The notes beneath the pieces were generated by a model. The model had not been told where the DNA came from and ran no database searches. It worked only from the letters and a program-made list of their open reading frames with translations. Position numbers and translations under genes: made by a program. Shown piece by piece: positions 27,920-33,967 of a DNA stretch of 51,117 nt. Position 1 is the first letter of the stretch. Each line of letters begins with the position of its first letter. Location: positions 1-51,117 of the forward strand of contig NZ_JADEXD010000023.1 in assembly GCF_015207285.1 (NCBI RefSeq), written 5' to 3'. The stretch is from Tychonema sp. LEGE 07203. GTDB taxonomy: Bacteria; Cyanobacteriota; Cyanobacteriia; Cyanobacteriales; Microcoleaceae.

Positions 27920-28582
27920 ATGAGACTAGACGAAGCCGTAGAATTTGCCGAAAACCCAGAGCCGCGCTGCCCCTGCGTCCTCCTGCTGGACACCTCCGGC
28001 TCCATGCAAGGCGCAGCCATAGATGCCTTGAATGAGGGGCTGGAAGTTTTTAGGAATGACCTAATTAAAGACGAACTAGCTAAAAAGCGAGTCGAAGTCG
28101 CGATTATTTCCTTTGACAATAATATCAAAGTCGTGCAAGACTTCGTGACTGCCGACCAATTCGAGACACCGCTGCTGACAGCCCAAGGACAAACCCACAT
28201 GGGCGCGGGCATTCAGCTCGCACTAGATACCATTGCCGCCCGCAAATCCGAATACCGCAACAACGGCATCACTTACTACCGCCCGTGGGTATTTATGATT
28301 ACCGACGGCGAACCTCAAGGCGAATCAGATGATGTTGTGGAAATAGCAGCACAGCGAATTAAAGAGGAAGAAACGAACAAGCGCGTGGCATTTTTTGCTG
28401 TCGGAGTCGAAGGTGCTAATATCTCCCGTCTCGCGGAAATTGTCGATCGCACTCCTGTAAAATTGAAAGGATTAGACTTTCGAGAGATGTTCATTTGGCT
28501 GTCGGCTAGTATGCAGAGAGTTTCTCACTCAAAAATTGACGAACAAGTAGCACTGCCGCCGCCCGGATGGGGAACTGTTTAG
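27920..28582 (+). CDS. VWA-domain protein, TerY / YegL-like
   Basis: The protein has 220 aa, a single von Willebrand A domain. The metal-binding MIDAS motif is complete: D24-T-S26-G-S28 (LLLDTSGSMQG), the Thr in GQTHMG and the Asp in MITDGEPQG. The C-terminal ALPPPGWGTV end is typical of the TerY group. Family knowledge: such proteins occur in TerY-phosphorylation triads with a PP2C phosphatase and a protein kinase (YegL-YegK-YegI in E. coli). Here the PP2C gene follows after 425 bp of repeats, but no kinase gene is in the window. Confidence 0.88.
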   Translation: MRLDEAVEFAENPEPRCPCVLLLDTSGSMQGAAIDALNEGLEVFRNDLIKDELAKKRVEVAIISFDNNIKVVQDFVTADQFETPLLTAQGQTHMGAGIQLALDTIAARKSEYRNNGITYYRPWVFMITDGEPQGESDDVVEIAAQRIKEEETNKRVAFFAVGVEGANISRLAEIVDRTPVKLKGLDFREMFIWLSASMQRVSHSKIDEQVALPPPGWGTV

Positions 28583-28586
28583 TCCG

Positions 28587-29013
28587 TTGTTAGTTGTTAG
28601 TTGTCAGTTGTTAGTGGTTAGTTGTCAGTTGGTAGTTGGTAGGGGCGGTGGATGGTGCGTGCGGGCCCTCTCAGTTGTTAGTTGTTAGTTGTTAGTTGTT
28701 AGTTGGTAGTTGTTAGTTGTTAGTTGTTATTAATAATAACAGATTCTTAAGAACTCTCTTTACACAATGAATACAAACTAACAATTGATAATAGAGATTG
28801 TAAGACAGAAACCCGAACTAAGGATTTTTCTTGATTCCTTTATGGAATAGTTCAATCTCAATTGTTTTTTGATTCTCACGACTAAAGACTAATAACTAAC
28901 AACCAAAAACCAACAACTAACAACTAACAACCAACAACCAACTAACAACCAACAACGGACAACCAACAACAAATAACTAATAACTAATAACTAATAACTA
29001 ATAACTAATGACT
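28587..29013. repeat. Two opposed heptad-type repeat tracts between the VWA and PP2C genes
   Basis: 28587-28735 is built of GTTAGTT/GTCAGTT-type heptamers interrupted by a GGGGCGGTGGATGG insert. 28880-29013 is built of AACTAAC, AACCAAC and AACTAAT units. The two tracts are roughly complementary and could form a long imperfect stem in RNA. The second tract includes the PP2C start codon. Confidence 0.85.
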
Positions 29014-29787
29014 AATGACTTGGGACTATTGAGTAATTGGCAAGTTGTAGCGGCATCCGTGACGGGTACGAGCCACGAAAAACGATCGCAGCCCTGTCAA
29101 GATGCCCACTGCTGGCGCGTCTTGGCCAACGGTGTTTTGGTAGCAGCAGTTGCCGACGGCGCGGGTTCGGCTGCACTGGCAGAAGTTGGGGCAAAAATTG
29201 CTGTAGAATCGGTTGTCGAAATGATTTGCCAACAGGATTTGCAGCCTGAAAATGACGGCGAATGGCAGGTATTTTTGACAGCATCGCTGCAAGTCGCGCG
29301 GGCGCAGGTGGAAGCAGAAGCGGCTGTGCGGGAAGTGCCGGCGAGGGATTTGGCTTGCACTTTAATTGCGGTTGTGGCGACTCCGGAATTAATCGCAGTT
29401 GCTCAAATTGGCGATGGTGCGGCGGTTGCGGGCGATAGTGAGGGAAATGCGATCGCCCTTACTGTACCTCCCTGCGGCGAATATATCAACGAAACCATCT
29501 TTTTAGTTTCGCCAAATGCGATCGAAACAGCGCAATTTCAGGTAATGCGGCAACCGCTGCGGCACTTGGCCGTGTTTTCCGACGGCTTGCAAATGCTAGC
29601 TCTCAAAATCCCCGAAGGTACGCCCCACAAGCCATTTTTTACGCCGTTGTTTCGGTTTTCGGGCGAAGTAAAAGAAGAGTCAGATGCGAAACAGCAGTTA
29701 GAGTCATTTTTGCGATCGCCTCGTGTGTGCGATCGCACCGATGATGATTTAACATTATTGTTAGCAAGTTTTTCTAATAATGTCTAA
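29008..29787 (+). CDS. PP2C-type protein phosphatase (YegK-like)
   Basis: The protein has 259 aa. The opening VVAASVTGTSHEKRSQPCQD is the PP2C_2 signature. Metal-site segments are AVADGAGSAA, AQIGDGAAVA, VFSDGLQMLAL and the C-terminal DDDLTLLLA. All the expected aspartates are visible, so it is probably active as a Mn/Mg-dependent Ser/Thr phosphatase. It is the usual partner of TerY-like VWA proteins. The start ATG and the codons for MTND lie inside a heptad repeat, and there is no Shine-Dalgarno. The next ATG in a different phase is seven nt on. Confidence 0.88.
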   Translation: MTNDLGLLSNWQVVAASVTGTSHEKRSQPCQDAHCWRVLANGVLVAAVADGAGSAALAEVGAKIAVESVVEMICQQDLQPENDGEWQVFLTASLQVARAQVEAEAAVREVPARDLACTLIAVVATPELIAVAQIGDGAAVAGDSEGNAIALTVPPCGEYINETIFLVSPNAIETAQFQVMRQPLRHLAVFSDGLQMLALKIPEGTPHKPFFTPLFRFSGEVKEESDAKQQLESFLRSPRVCDRTDDDLTLLLASFSNNV

Positions 29788-29825: not shown

Positions 29826-30497
29826 ATGACTGCTCAACCAATTAGTGGTAGAAACTTGTTGCGAGAAACCTTTGCTGTCATTGGTTCTGTATACGTTCCC
29901 CTGTTGATTATCTGCTCTCCCCTTTTCATATTTCGCGTGCTGAAACTTTCAGAAAAGCTGGGTTCAGCAAGTGTTGCTTTGAATATTATCTACTCATGTG
30001 TTTTAATTCCTTTAGTGAGGGGAGCTGTGATTTTCTACCTTTACAGAAGTTTGACAGGGAATCAAGTAACTGTGAACGAAGCTTTCCAACAAGCAAACAG
30101 GAGGTTGTGGCCCCTCATTTTGGTTTTTAGTAAGTCGGCGCTGATGGTTTTTGCAGGCTCCATTGCACTAATAATTCCAGGAGTTTATTTAGCCTGTCGC
30201 TTACTATTTGCACCTTGCGCTACCGTCATTGAAAACTGTTCGGATGTGGACAGTCTTAACAGCAGTTTCCAATTAACTCAAGGGCGCGAGTGGTTAGTAT
30301 TTCGATCGAGCTGCTTGATATCATTTGTGTATTTTATCCCAGGACTATTGATAACCATATTAATTGATCCGACAGGAATATCCCTAGCATCTAATCTCGC
30401 GGGTAATGCAACTGTCTTTTTAGTTGCACCGTTGACAAATGTTTTTGGAATTTTATTGTACCTGCGCCTGCGGGAATCGGCAGCAACTATTAAATAG
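29826..30497 (+). CDS. Six-helix membrane protein (glycerophosphodiesterase membrane-domain-like)
   Basis: The protein has 223 aa with about six hydrophobic helices. The block ALIIPGVYLACRLLFAPCAT, followed by a small polar loop with SSFQLTQGREW, matches the pattern IPGIYLxxRxxFAxP of the GPDPase_memb / DUF975-like group. These proteins have no known enzyme function. It starts 38 nt after the PP2C gene and so probably belongs to the same transcript. A link to the VWA/PP2C pair is inferred from position only. Confidence 0.7.
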   Translation: MTAQPISGRNLLRETFAVIGSVYVPLLIICSPLFIFRVLKLSEKLGSASVALNIIYSCVLIPLVRGAVIFYLYRSLTGNQVTVNEAFQQANRRLWPLILVFSKSALMVFAGSIALIIPGVYLACRLLFAPCATVIENCSDVDSLNSSFQLTQGREWLVFRSSCLISFVYFIPGLLITILIDPTGISLASNLAGNATVFLVAPLTNVFGILLYLRLRESAATIK

Positions 30498-30648: not shown

Positions 30649-31341
30649 TTGCAAGCACAAGATATTAAGGATAAGCTCAACTCCCTAATTAGCGCAGCAG
30701 ATCGAATAGATCCGAGTTTGGCGAGAAGATTGGATGAAATCAATCGCTGGGTGAAAGATGTCAAACCCGGTTCGCTAACTGCTAAGAAATTTGTGATGGC
30801 TTTTTTGCTACAGCTTATCCGAGATTCTCAGGTTTGGCTGGCAATTAAATCTCTACCTTCGGAAAGAGAACAACAAGCAGCTTTTGAATTAATGAATCCG
30901 GGGGAAAGGTATTGGTACGGCTATTTATTTCCTAAATGGCTGAACGAAAACGATCGCAAATTTTTCATCTGGAAACAAAAACTCAAAGCCGGTGAATTCG
31001 ATCCGGCTGACGATCTAGTGATTCGGGCGATCGCCGCCCGGATTGTCGAACGCCAAGGCACTGTTTTGTATCGCTATGTTGCCGATCTTTCTATGGCAAC
31101 CGACTCGATCGTTAGCAGCCGCCAACAGCAGCCCCTCTGCATTCAAGTCACTACTCTTTCGGATGAGTTTTCTCAACAAAAATATCAAAAATGGCAACAA
31201 ACTCTTCGAGATTGGGGGATTGACAGAGGATTATTTTTAAGTTATGATATAAACGATGCAAATTTCCTGAACCAGTTAGTTAACATTGCATTATATAATA
31301 GCGATAATTTGCCTGCAGGTCGTTACCTGAAGTTCCCGTAA
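30649..31341 (+). CDS. Hypothetical protein with possible PD-(D/E)xK-like C-terminus
   Basis: The protein has 230 aa from a TTG start, with a weak AGG eight nt upstream; no in-frame ATG or GTG near it fits better. The N-terminal half is helical. The second half reads RIVERQGTVLYRYVADLSMA, then D152, then LCIQVTT, then a helix KYQKWQQTLRDWGIDRG and a final strand GLFLSYD. An E134...D152...Q166-x-T order is reminiscent of a degenerate restriction-endonuclease-like fold, but this is speculative. It ends with NLPAGRYLKFP. I do not recognise a family. It lies between the membrane-protein gene and the pseudo-RNase III gene. Confidence 0.6.
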   Translation: MQAQDIKDKLNSLISAADRIDPSLARRLDEINRWVKDVKPGSLTAKKFVMAFLLQLIRDSQVWLAIKSLPSEREQQAAFELMNPGERYWYGYLFPKWLNENDRKFFIWKQKLKAGEFDPADDLVIRAIAARIVERQGTVLYRYVADLSMATDSIVSSRQQQPLCIQVTTLSDEFSQQKYQKWQQTLRDWGIDRGLFLSYDINDANFLNQLVNIALYNSDNLPAGRYLKFP

Positions 31342-31913: not shown

Positions 31914-33656
31914 ATGACAGTACAAGCTAAAAGCACCGTTGAAAGCAACTTGCACAAAGTCTGGGAAGAACTGGAAGCAGCCAGAAAAATGCAGGATGAT
32001 TGGATGAATCACGGGGTGGATTTTGTGGATTTGTACGTGGAAGATGCAGGCGGTGATTGGTTGGAAAAGTGGGAAAAATGTGAAAAAGAATTAGAGCTGA
32101 TAAAAAACAAAAAGGTAGATGTTGCAGCAGTCAAAACAGCGATCGACCTGCAGGATTTCGGGCGAACCGAACTGCTGGAAATTGCCTTGACCGGCCGTTG
32201 GCAGACTGGCGATCGCCCCACAGGGCAAAATGTGAAACACCAACGGCTTTCACTCTTGGGCGGAGCAATTTTTGGTGCAGTTGTTACCGATTACCTGTAC
32301 CGCACCTATCCCGATCTCAACTGCGATTGTATTTCGACCCTAAAAACTCGTTTTACAGACCAGAAAAAAGTTGCGGAATTAGCACAAAATTTAAAATTGA
32401 GCGAACTCAGCCGGCCTGCTGGTAGGGGGAAGGAAACAGACAAAAGCGAGGATAACAATTTTTTGTGCCAGACTTTTGAGGCTTTGTTTGGTGCGATTTA
32501 CTTGGAGTTCGATCGCAATTTTTGCCGCGCGGCAAATTGGCTGGTTCAGCGATCGCTAGAACCGACACTCAGCCAGTATATAGATATAACTCAGCAGCCC
32601 GATCGCGCGCCCGGAAACGAACTCAAACGGCGGGAAATCCTCGGTGCGGGGATTCTAGAGGCGATCGCGATCGACTATTTGTACAAGCGATTTCCCGAAC
32701 GCAACGCCAGCCAACTAATTAGCTGGAAAAATCAGTTAGTAGCAAAAAAGATTTTTCCTAAAGACTTTCAAGCAAAACTCGGCAGTCGTTACTTGGAATT
32801 GGAGAGCAATTTCTCGCGTACCAGCGACTGGTTGGTAGATAACTTTATCAAAACCGCAATTGACGAACTAATAGAAGAAACCGACTCTCAACCAGAATAT
32901 CTGATTGACACCGCCAACCCGGAATCGCTAGCAGAATTTGTTAGCAAGATGGCCGACAAAAAGTGGAAAAATGAATTTTTGAGAACAGTCGATGTTTTGC
33001 AACCGGCGGACGAACTTTTGCTGCTGATGCAAGATAACATTGACAGTATGGTGGCGAAAAATGAAAGTTTGCAGCAGTTGCTAATCTGGGCAAATCACAA
33101 ATCGGTGTCAGCCCAAAAGAATTTCAAAGGGGCAGAAATTCGGGCTTTTTATGTTGCCTTAGTTTGTGTCTTGGCTTTGAGTTTGACTAGCGTCCTCGAT
33201 CCGAGTATGGAGTTTGATAAATCGCAAGTTTGCCAGTTGCGGAAGTGTTTGGAAAAAGCTGGAAAAAATGTGGAACTTGCGGATGTTAGCGGCAAGGGGA
33301 AACACAATTTTTACGGTGATTTGACTAATGTCTTGGTTGGGATATTGTCGCTGGATATTGAACCGGAACTCAAACAACTGCTGCAACAATTTCAGCGTCA
33401 AATCCCTGAAGTGCAAAATTGGAAAAAGTGGCGGAAAGAGTGCGGCCAAATTTGGCTGGAAAAATTCAAAAGGGCGATCGGCTACAATTTAGACTTTCGC
33501 CCCCAACAGAAAACTTTGCTGAAACAATATTACTATGCCCAAAACTTGTTGGTGGAATGCCTCCACAGCGATAATTGTCAGGTGACACCGGCCGTCAAAC
33601 AAAAAATTGAGGATAGGATGATGTTATCTGTGGATTTGAAGCTCGTTTACATCTAA
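31914..33656 (+). CDS. Protein with two degenerate RNase III-like domains (pseudo-RNase III)
   Basis: The protein has 580 aa. After a charged helix (1-80), residues 84-216 follow the RNase III fold: LLEIALTGRW, then HQRLSLLGGAIFGAVVTDYL at the signature position, then CQTFEALFGAIYLEFD. The catalytic ERLEFLGDAVL motif has E to Q110, E to S113 and D to G117, and D to Q186 in the second motif; only E189 remains. Residues 235-315 repeat the fold in shortened form (RREILGAGILEAIAIDYLYK and GSRYLELESNFSRTSDWLVD) with D to A245 and the middle deleted. Residues 330-580 are helical and unfamiliar. No dsRNA-binding domain is seen. It should bind RNA or act as a scaffold, not cleave. It lies in the VWA/PP2C island. 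Confidence 0.75.
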   Translation: MTVQAKSTVESNLHKVWEELEAARKMQDDWMNHGVDFVDLYVEDAGGDWLEKWEKCEKELELIKNKKVDVAAVKTAIDLQDFGRTELLEIALTGRWQTGDRPTGQNVKHQRLSLLGGAIFGAVVTDYLYRTYPDLNCDCISTLKTRFTDQKKVAELAQNLKLSELSRPAGRGKETDKSEDNNFLCQTFEALFGAIYLEFDRNFCRAANWLVQRSLEPTLSQYIDITQQPDRAPGNELKRREILGAGILEAIAIDYLYKRFPERNASQLISWKNQLVAKKIFPKDFQAKLGSRYLELESNFSRTSDWLVDNFIKTAIDELIEETDSQPEYLIDTANPESLAEFVSKMADKKWKNEFLRTVDVLQPADELLLLMQDNIDSMVAKNESLQQLLIWANHKSVSAQKNFKGAEIRAFYVALVCVLALSLTSVLDPSMEFDKSQVCQLRKCLEKAGKNVELADVSGKGKHNFYGDLTNVLVGILSLDIEPELKQLLQQFQRQIPEVQNWKKWRKECGQIWLEKFKRAIGYNLDFRPQQKTLLKQYYYAQNLLVECLHSDNCQVTPAVKQKIEDRMMLSVDLKLVYI

Positions 33657-33783: not shown

Positions 33784-33866
33784 TGTCAAAAAACAATAAA
33801 ACTATTGTGGGGTGGGCCAGAAAGCCCGCCCTGAATATGCAATGTTTATTTGCGCGACAGACATGA

Positions 33867-33954
33867 TATAGCGGTTCTCAAGCTTGGTGAGGTATACCAT
33901 ATACCCTATACCATATACCCGCCAGAGCACCTCACGTTACTGAGAACCGCTATA
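33867..33954. mobile_element. MITE-like element, family C copy 4
   Basis: This is the best preserved palindrome of the family: TATAGCGGTTCTCA at the left and TGAGAACCGCTATA at the right, with inner GAGGTATACCATATACCC / GCACCTC arms and two ATACCCTATACC-type units. It ends 13 nt before the mnmG stop codon side. Confidence 0.75.
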
Positions 33955-33967
33955 TTAACTATTCTCC

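Follow-up and report, generated by a model that had tools for sequence, protein, structure and literature searches.

The locus and its protein product

The window, the whole stretch of 51,117 nucleotides of Tychonema sp. LEGE 07203 DNA that was analysed, carries on its plus strand an open reading frame without internal stop (31914..33656). It encodes a protein of 580 amino acids, called the window protein here, in which two degenerate RNase III-like domains in tandem are followed by a C-terminal region that ends in an NCH2 domain (NACHT C-terminal helical domain 2). The protein starts with an acidic extension (aa 1-64, 31914..32105, plus strand), which is conserved in the genus and has no Pfam match. 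Upstream on the same strand lie genes for a vWA protein (27920..28582), a PP2C phosphatase (29008..29787), a membrane protein (29826..30497) and a conserved 230-aa protein of no known family (30649..31341). A palindromic repeat (33866..33955) occupies the junction of the tandem gene and mnmG.

As the preliminary description had stated, there is no dsRBD: a Pfam scan with E values up to 1 detected none in the window protein, which is therefore not a class 1 bacterial RNase III. The score of 78 bits against the NCBIfam RNaseIII family is below the cut-off of 166. The acidic residues essential for activity are those at the positions of E. coli RNase III D45 and E117, and both have to be present in one domain. 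The window protein has G117 and E189 in domain one, and A245 and Q286 in domain two, so that neither domain combines the two.

RNase III-like domain one

Domain one (aa 65-224, 32106..32585, plus strand) was delimited with a profile built from 15 relatives outside the genus, which it matches with 117 bits. Pfam Ribonuclease_3 (PF00636) matches the protein in two stretches, the best of them at residues 110-198, with a whole-protein score of 75 bits (E 8e-21). A phmmer search against the PDB sequences places Drosha on top (E 2.7e-11, best stretch residues 100-199). By fold, the protein belongs to the RNase III superfamily according to Pfam, the profile score of domain two and the RNase III matches found with Foldseek. 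The RNase III fold pattern earlier noticed in domain one is thus upheld by Pfam, by the structure model and by Foldseek.

The residues E38, E41, D45 and D114 of E. coli RNase III are given in PMC8708148. By our placing, the corresponding motif positions of domain one are occupied by Q110, S113, G117 and Q186, and all four acidic residues are lost. E189, at the position of E. coli E117, is retained. The four substitutions had been listed correctly from the start, but the retention of E189 had gone unmentioned, and Q186 is weak evidence of catalytic loss, because seven of eight ordinary cyanobacterial RNase IIIs have no Asp there either. In these canonical enzymes (L002 from the same genome and L062-L068, collected in passing) the D114 position is Ser or Asn.

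RNase III-like domain two

Domain two (aa 230-325, 32601..32888, plus strand) is supported by the profile and by the model. The outside profile aligns with it in two segments, residues 230-279 (profile positions 46-95) and 279-325 (profile positions 126-172). The matches start at position 46 and leave a gap between positions 95 and 126, so that this domain lacks 45 positions at its beginning and about 30 in its interior. It scores 57.7 bits in the window protein, compared with 5.5 bits for the best of 500 shuffles of the same domain, and 52.6-65.9 bits across all 27 genus sequences. The earlier reading of domain two as an internally deleted duplicate with A245 is borne out by the profile and the shuffles. 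With A245 at the D45 position and Q286 at the E117 position, both essential residues are gone.

The internal gap of domain two lies between the post-signature stretch and the FEA motif. In canonical RNase III, the alpha5-alpha6 loop bears RNA-binding motif 4 (PMC4357697). By our inference, this loop should fall within the gap. The part of domain one that corresponds to the alpha5-alpha6 stretch is poorly conserved.

These features bear on the possibility that the protein is an RNA-binding factor comparable to RNC1, in which two dead domains hold structured RNA and aid its processing without any role in signalling. RNC1 itself, which is described as catalytically inactive, carries two such domains and takes part in the splicing of group II introns (PMC8708148, PMC11241334). 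Moreover, the E. coli D45A variant, which has no activity in vivo and low activity in vitro, still binds dsRNA according to a table in PMC8708148. However, the window protein lacks a dsRBD, and where an RNA-binding motif would be expected, domain two has its deletion and the sequence of domain one is poorly conserved. Charge does not decide on RNA binding: the pI is 5.9 for domain one and 5.5 for domain two, compared with 4.8-5.5 for three canonical cyanobacterial RNase III domains, and exceeds 8 for domain two in 6 of the 27 genus sequences. We regard a purely RNA-binding role as unlikely.

Structure model

A model of residues 61-330, built from 13 sequences, has a pLDDT of 75.0 and a pTM of 0.77, and both domains are all-helical in it. 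The full-chain model (7 sequences, pLDDT 38.6) is unusable. In a Foldseek search of the PDB with the model of residues 61-330, Drosha is again the top match (E 3.3e-6, TMq 0.56). The single RNase III domains 1i4s_A and 9h4a_B are matched with a TMt of 0.78 and an rmsd of 3.2-3.5, and the listed one-domain RNase III matches as a group have TMq values of 0.36-0.47 and TMt values of up to 0.78. Because of the single-domain matches, domain one can be assigned the RNase III fold, and the structure prediction called for in the preliminary description thus gave an RNase III-like result.

The model suggests a pseudo-dimer-like packing of the two domains. The rmsd of the Drosha match is 13.5 over 348 columns, and the packing is therefore not established by this match. 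Thus, the proposal of an RNase III fold in two domains without a complete metal site stands, and the best match is indeed to the paired domains of Drosha, but packing in the manner of a dimer is only suggested.

Orthologues and selection in the genus

With a threshold of E 1e-40 or better, 29 genomes of the genus (Microcoleus) yield 27 orthologous sequences, which come from 26 of them. Six named orthologue records were found, four from Microcoleus, one from Lyngbya sp. and one from a 'Phorm 6' isolate. The Asp of the metal site is absent at its position in both domains in all 27 sequences. It is replaced by G, E, A, S, R or K in domain one, and by A or G in domain two. Domain one retains the FEA Glu in 25 of the 27 sequences and domain two in none, with Q, H or K occupying this second essential position of domain two in every case. 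The residue that directly follows the lost Asp in domain two is D in 19 sequences, E in four and neither in four, among them the window protein (G246). In the orthologues with an acidic residue one position on, a shifted metal contact would be just conceivable.

Selection was estimated by the Nei-Gojobori method, comparing the window gene with 16 orthologues. For the whole gene dN/dS is 0.22-0.40, and is below 1 in all 16 comparisons. Domain two (0.14-0.28) has lower values than domain one (0.28-0.50) in all 16 comparisons, and in six of them the N-terminal extension has a still lower value than domain two. The C-terminus has values of 0.30-0.48 in the eight compared orthologues that possess one. 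For the neighbouring genes, dN/dS is 0.01-0.11 (vWA), 0.09-0.17 (PP2C) and 0.15-0.26 (230-aa protein). The tandem gene is therefore maintained, yet of the four genes measured it is, overall, under the weakest constraint. Its faster evolution compared with vWA and PP2C fits a passenger gene as well as a conflict protein.

The orthologue alignment, which the preliminary description had proposed as a check, thus finds the acidic losses conserved and the gene under purifying selection. The idea that the window protein is a single decayed copy is rejected, since the losses are shared by all 27 sequences and dN/dS is below 1 throughout.

C-terminal region and NCH2

The C-terminal region (aa 330-573, 32901..33632, plus strand) had been described as some 250 residues of unknown nature. 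This is incorrect: the region matches the C-termini of NACHT proteins, being homologous to the C-terminal 240 or so amino acids of cyanobacterial NACHT proteins, and Pfam assigns residues 486-571 (33369..33626, plus strand) to the NCH2 family with 81.4 bits, against a cut-off of 27. NCH2 is the only domain of this kind that Pfam finds in the window protein. A NACHT ATPase domain is absent, and the protein is thus not a NACHT or STAND NTPase. The window genome has no NCH2 match besides the one at 486-571. For this reason, we reject the idea that the protein generally pairs with a NACHT protein that bears NCH2 and is encoded in the same genome.

NCH2 is present in 10 of the 27 genus sequences, which are full-length. 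The other 17 stop after domain two, which makes the NCH2 part dispensable. In a tree of C-termini, a single branch (support 100/97) parts 13 RNase III-linked sequences from 20 NACHT sequences. Independent fusions of RNase III and NCH2 were set aside because of this single branch, and one fusion with later loss of NCH2 is the simpler account because the branch parts all 13 fused sequences from the 20 NACHT C-termini. The presence and absence of NCH2 require three label changes on the genus tree, for which losses and regain are indistinguishable.

Several NACHT proteins (L018, L021, L023, L024) have a low-complexity Leu-Asp/Ser/Arg repeat of variable length that precedes NCH2 in the C-terminus. 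This repeat is absent from the RNase III fusions seen. Another protein (L094, genome G234) combines what appears by eye to be a caspase-like N-terminus with NACHT and an NCH2-type C-terminus.

Relatives outside the genus and origin of the tandem

Outside the genus, fusion counts are lower bounds. At least four proteins from other families of the order, each about 400 aa long and with a single RNase III-like domain, have this domain joined to the same C-terminal region (the RNase III-NCH2 fusions L017, L019, L020 and L022). In a further protein of the same lineage (L085 8733-9842, genome G002) the RNase III-like domain is fused to GUN4 (140 bits), another C-terminus of the sensor type. A further 19 relatives across the class have neither NCH2 nor GUN4. 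Eighteen of them are standalone proteins of 163-211 aa, and the remaining one, L046, has an extra N-terminus. The outside profile was built from the four single fusions and 11 of these 19 relatives.

The D45 position is Asp in 18 of the 19 relatives without NCH2 or GUN4, in all four NCH2 fusions and in the GUN4 fusion. Among these 24 proteins, the FEA Glu is present in all, the D114 position is Glu in all, and the E38 position is Arg in 22. For L046, L055 and L057 the motifs were read by eye.

The standalone proteins (L040, L042-L045, L048-L052, L054-L061) form an RNase III-like cyanobacterial lineage without dsRBD, in which the motif is mostly R-D-E-E, replacing E-D-D-E. Several members have a conserved acidic tail at their end, for example WAPGDDDD. 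The members of this lineage may be active. They do not obviously match either of the two kinds of RNase III described in the available sections of PMC10989914. One standalone protein from a sister genus (L055 1489-2109, genome G075) has Ser instead of the metal-site Asp, perhaps a second and independent loss. In L046 (1141-2097, genome G550) a nucleotidyltransferase-like N-terminus, by eye of the MNT type, precedes an RNase III-like domain of the standalone type.

In the RNase III tree, which samples 13 of 27 domain-one sequences, 14 of the 19 relatives without NCH2 or GUN4 and seven of eight canonical enzymes, the RNase III-like lineage stands apart from canonical RNase III with support of 100/100. 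We infer a noncanonical RNase III-like lineage without E38 as the starting point, which would then have been fused to a NACHT C-terminus. In the Microcoleus line, this would have been followed by the gain of the N-terminal extension, the addition of a truncated second copy and the loss of D45. Within the genus, NCH2 would have been lost (or regained) last.

The tree also concerns a possible role of the protein as a dominant-negative regulator, which would form dead heterodimers with an active relative or with the active RNase III of the cell. In bacteria, RNase III forms homodimers (PMC10989914), and the same genome encodes a canonical RNase III with intact signature (L002). However, domain two would already offer an internal partner, and the tandem family is a clade apart from the canonical enzymes (100/100). 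Interference of this kind appears very unlikely to us.

Gene neighbourhood

In the genus, the gene order is vWA, PP2C, (membrane protein), 230-aa protein, tandem gene, (Uma2-like), 704-aa kinase, with all genes on the same strand. The fast-evolving membrane protein is not in every genus cluster, and the Uma2-like gene adjoins the tandem gene in 5 of 12 genus regions (Pfam-checked in two). The match of the kinase to Pkinase is weak, its 26.7 bits falling short of the cut-off (31.7). A zinc-ribbon-like motif, C313-x14-C328-P-W-C331, is present in the one kinase examined. A TerY-like vWA protein, a PP2C phosphatase and a kinase fused to a C-terminal zinc ribbon make up the TerY-P triad, which is presumed to be a metal-sensing phosphorylation switch, and anti-phage activity is attributed to the versions that have an OB-fold kinase (PMC11090510). 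The neighbourhood in the genus has the composition of this triad, as have 10 of 15 regions around the vWA gene in other genera, with the vWA protein (the first triad gene, followed by PP2C as the second) being TerY-like by context only. PADLOC has no match for the window protein, the vWA protein, PP2C, the membrane protein or the 230-aa protein, and the kinase matches other kinases weakly.

In 21 of the 26 genomes with an orthologue, the tandem gene lies within 2 kb of the kinase gene, on the same contig and strand. The kinase is 25 kb off and on the other strand in G228, and apart from the tandem gene also in G288. In the window genome (G000), it is found on a different contig (C100), cut at the contig end and with other DNA before it. 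Adjacency is not judgeable in G219, where contigs end, and in G628, where no kinase was found and the contig ends 1.4 kb on. The three genomes of the 29 without an orthologue (G092, G621, G626; 99, 84 and 87% complete) also have no kinase, and in G092 a separate search found the vWA gene missing as well. The palindromic repeat sits beside mnmG, where most relatives carry the kinase. Its 15-base arm has 23 exact copies in the genome, compared with none for the reversed control. The repeat may represent a small mobile element and mark the rearrangement.

In tblastn searches (1e-6), neither the tandem gene nor the 230-aa protein was found in any of the 15 vWA regions of other genera. As the triad exists elsewhere without these genes, both were probably added between PP2C and the kinase in the Microcoleus line. 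The 230-aa protein is co-located with the tandem gene in the genus and is also present in genera without this gene. Of 148 genomes of the order, 36 encode it, and as 32 of these belong to other genera, it was rejected as an obligate partner. Counter to this rejection, the distance between the 230-aa gene and a gene for a single-domain RNase III-NCH2 protein is about 4.4 kb in G108 (region L082).

The tandem gene could be a passenger that was inserted at a tolerant spot between PP2C and the kinase and is now either decaying slowly or maintained for reasons that have nothing to do with the triad. In support of this idea, the triad occurs without the tandem gene in 10 of the 15 regions of other genera, a Uma2-like family also adjoins the gene in 5 of the 12 genus regions, the gene evolves fast, and the kinase is separated from it in three genomes. 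Against it, dN/dS is well below 1 in all 16 comparisons, and the gene is present in 26 of 29 genomes and missing jointly with the kinase in the other three. On balance, we find a mere passenger improbable.

Possible function

The NACHT-type C-terminus and the gene order suggest a role in signalling no less than one in RNA handling. Our favoured reading, which we put forward tentatively, is that the protein is a non-cutting pseudo-dimer adaptor within a TerY-P-like phospho-switch. Domain one and the cut-down domain two would pair within the chain, imitating an RNase III dimer that is unable to cut. In the full-length form, this pseudo-dimer would be joined to a NACHT-type C-terminus that probably senses a ligand, as the C-terminal ends of STAND proteins are described as sensors (PMC10907252). 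The tandem protein would probably act with the vWA-PP2C-kinase switch, either as a scaffold or as a phosphorylation target, and may be linked to a stress or phage response. In favour of the adaptor are the metal-site Asp missing at its position in every orthologue, the selection on domain two, the Drosha match of the tandem, the NCH2 fusion and the closeness to a kinase with a zinc-ribbon-like motif. Several observations argue against the adaptor. NCH2 is missing from 17 of the 27 genus sequences, the kinase is not adjacent in the window genome, G288 and G228, and two of the three genomes without both genes are only 84% and 87% complete. Further points against it are the faster evolution relative to vWA and PP2C, the N-terminal extension being under stronger constraint than domain two in six of 16 comparisons, the acidic residue next to the lost Asp in most domain-two sequences, the high rmsd of the Drosha match and the five proteins without a PADLOC match.

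A more specific alternative, which we consider rather improbable, is a receptor without an ATPase of its own. In such a receptor, either RNA or a phage factor that targets RNase III would be lured by the dead pseudo-dimer, acting as bait or decoy. Sensing would fall to the NLR-type C-terminus and output to the vWA-PP2C-kinase switch. If this were true, the locus would be a cyanobacterial conflict system with a pseudo-nuclease as its sensing part.

Among the matches listed, the titles and abstract starts of open-licence PMC papers contain no case of RNase III joined to NACHT, nor of a tandem RNase III with NACHT C-terminus in a TerY-P-like cluster. Words beginning with RNase are absent from the accessible text of PMC10907252 (PNAS 2024), on NACHT-linked sensors, and the terms RNase III and RNaseIII from that of PMC7159879.

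Comparison with known systems

Drosha and Dicer are active enzymes. They share with the window protein the arrangement of tandem RNase III domains in one chain, and Drosha is its best match both by fold and in the PDB sequence search. However, Drosha and Dicer are far longer, and the window protein has both sites broken. Mini-III is similar in having an RNase III domain without dsRBD, but it matures 23S rRNA (PMC10989914), whereas the window protein has lost an essential Asp and gained a second domain and a C-terminus. The cyanobacterial NACHT proteins with NCH2 share homologous C-terminal residues (about 240) with the window protein. In contrast to them, it has no NACHT ATPase, and the RNase III-linked C-termini form a group of their own.

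The neighbourhood in the genus has the same three gene types in the same order as the TerY-P triad, placed around the tandem gene, but an RNase III-like component is not mentioned in the accessible parts of PMC11090510. In the ternary conflict systems of Kaur et al. 2020, dead versions of enzymes are described as decoys or dominant negatives (PMC7159879), as might apply to the window protein, but these systems are centred on MoxR-vWA in the available text.

A close parallel in architecture is RNC1 of plant chloroplasts, which has two RNase III domains per chain and is described as catalytically inactive (PMC8708148, PMC11241334). In contrast to the window protein, RNC1 acts in intron splicing, and the available parts of the same two papers do not mention a NACHT-type C-terminus. 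The window protein also differs by its internally deleted domain two and by its place in a bacterial phospho-signalling cluster, and the likeness is one of architecture, not of compared sequences. As RNC1 already has two dead RNase III domains, a dead tandem is not new as a kind. The present protein is a bacterial case with a traceable history, from relatives with an intact Asp, some standalone and others single-domain fusions, through duplication and internal deletion, to the loss of the metal site. Since an RNase III fold is tied here to a NACHT C-terminus and a phospho-switch, a single protein with its neighbours offers a test case for a pseudo-nuclease that serves in signalling.
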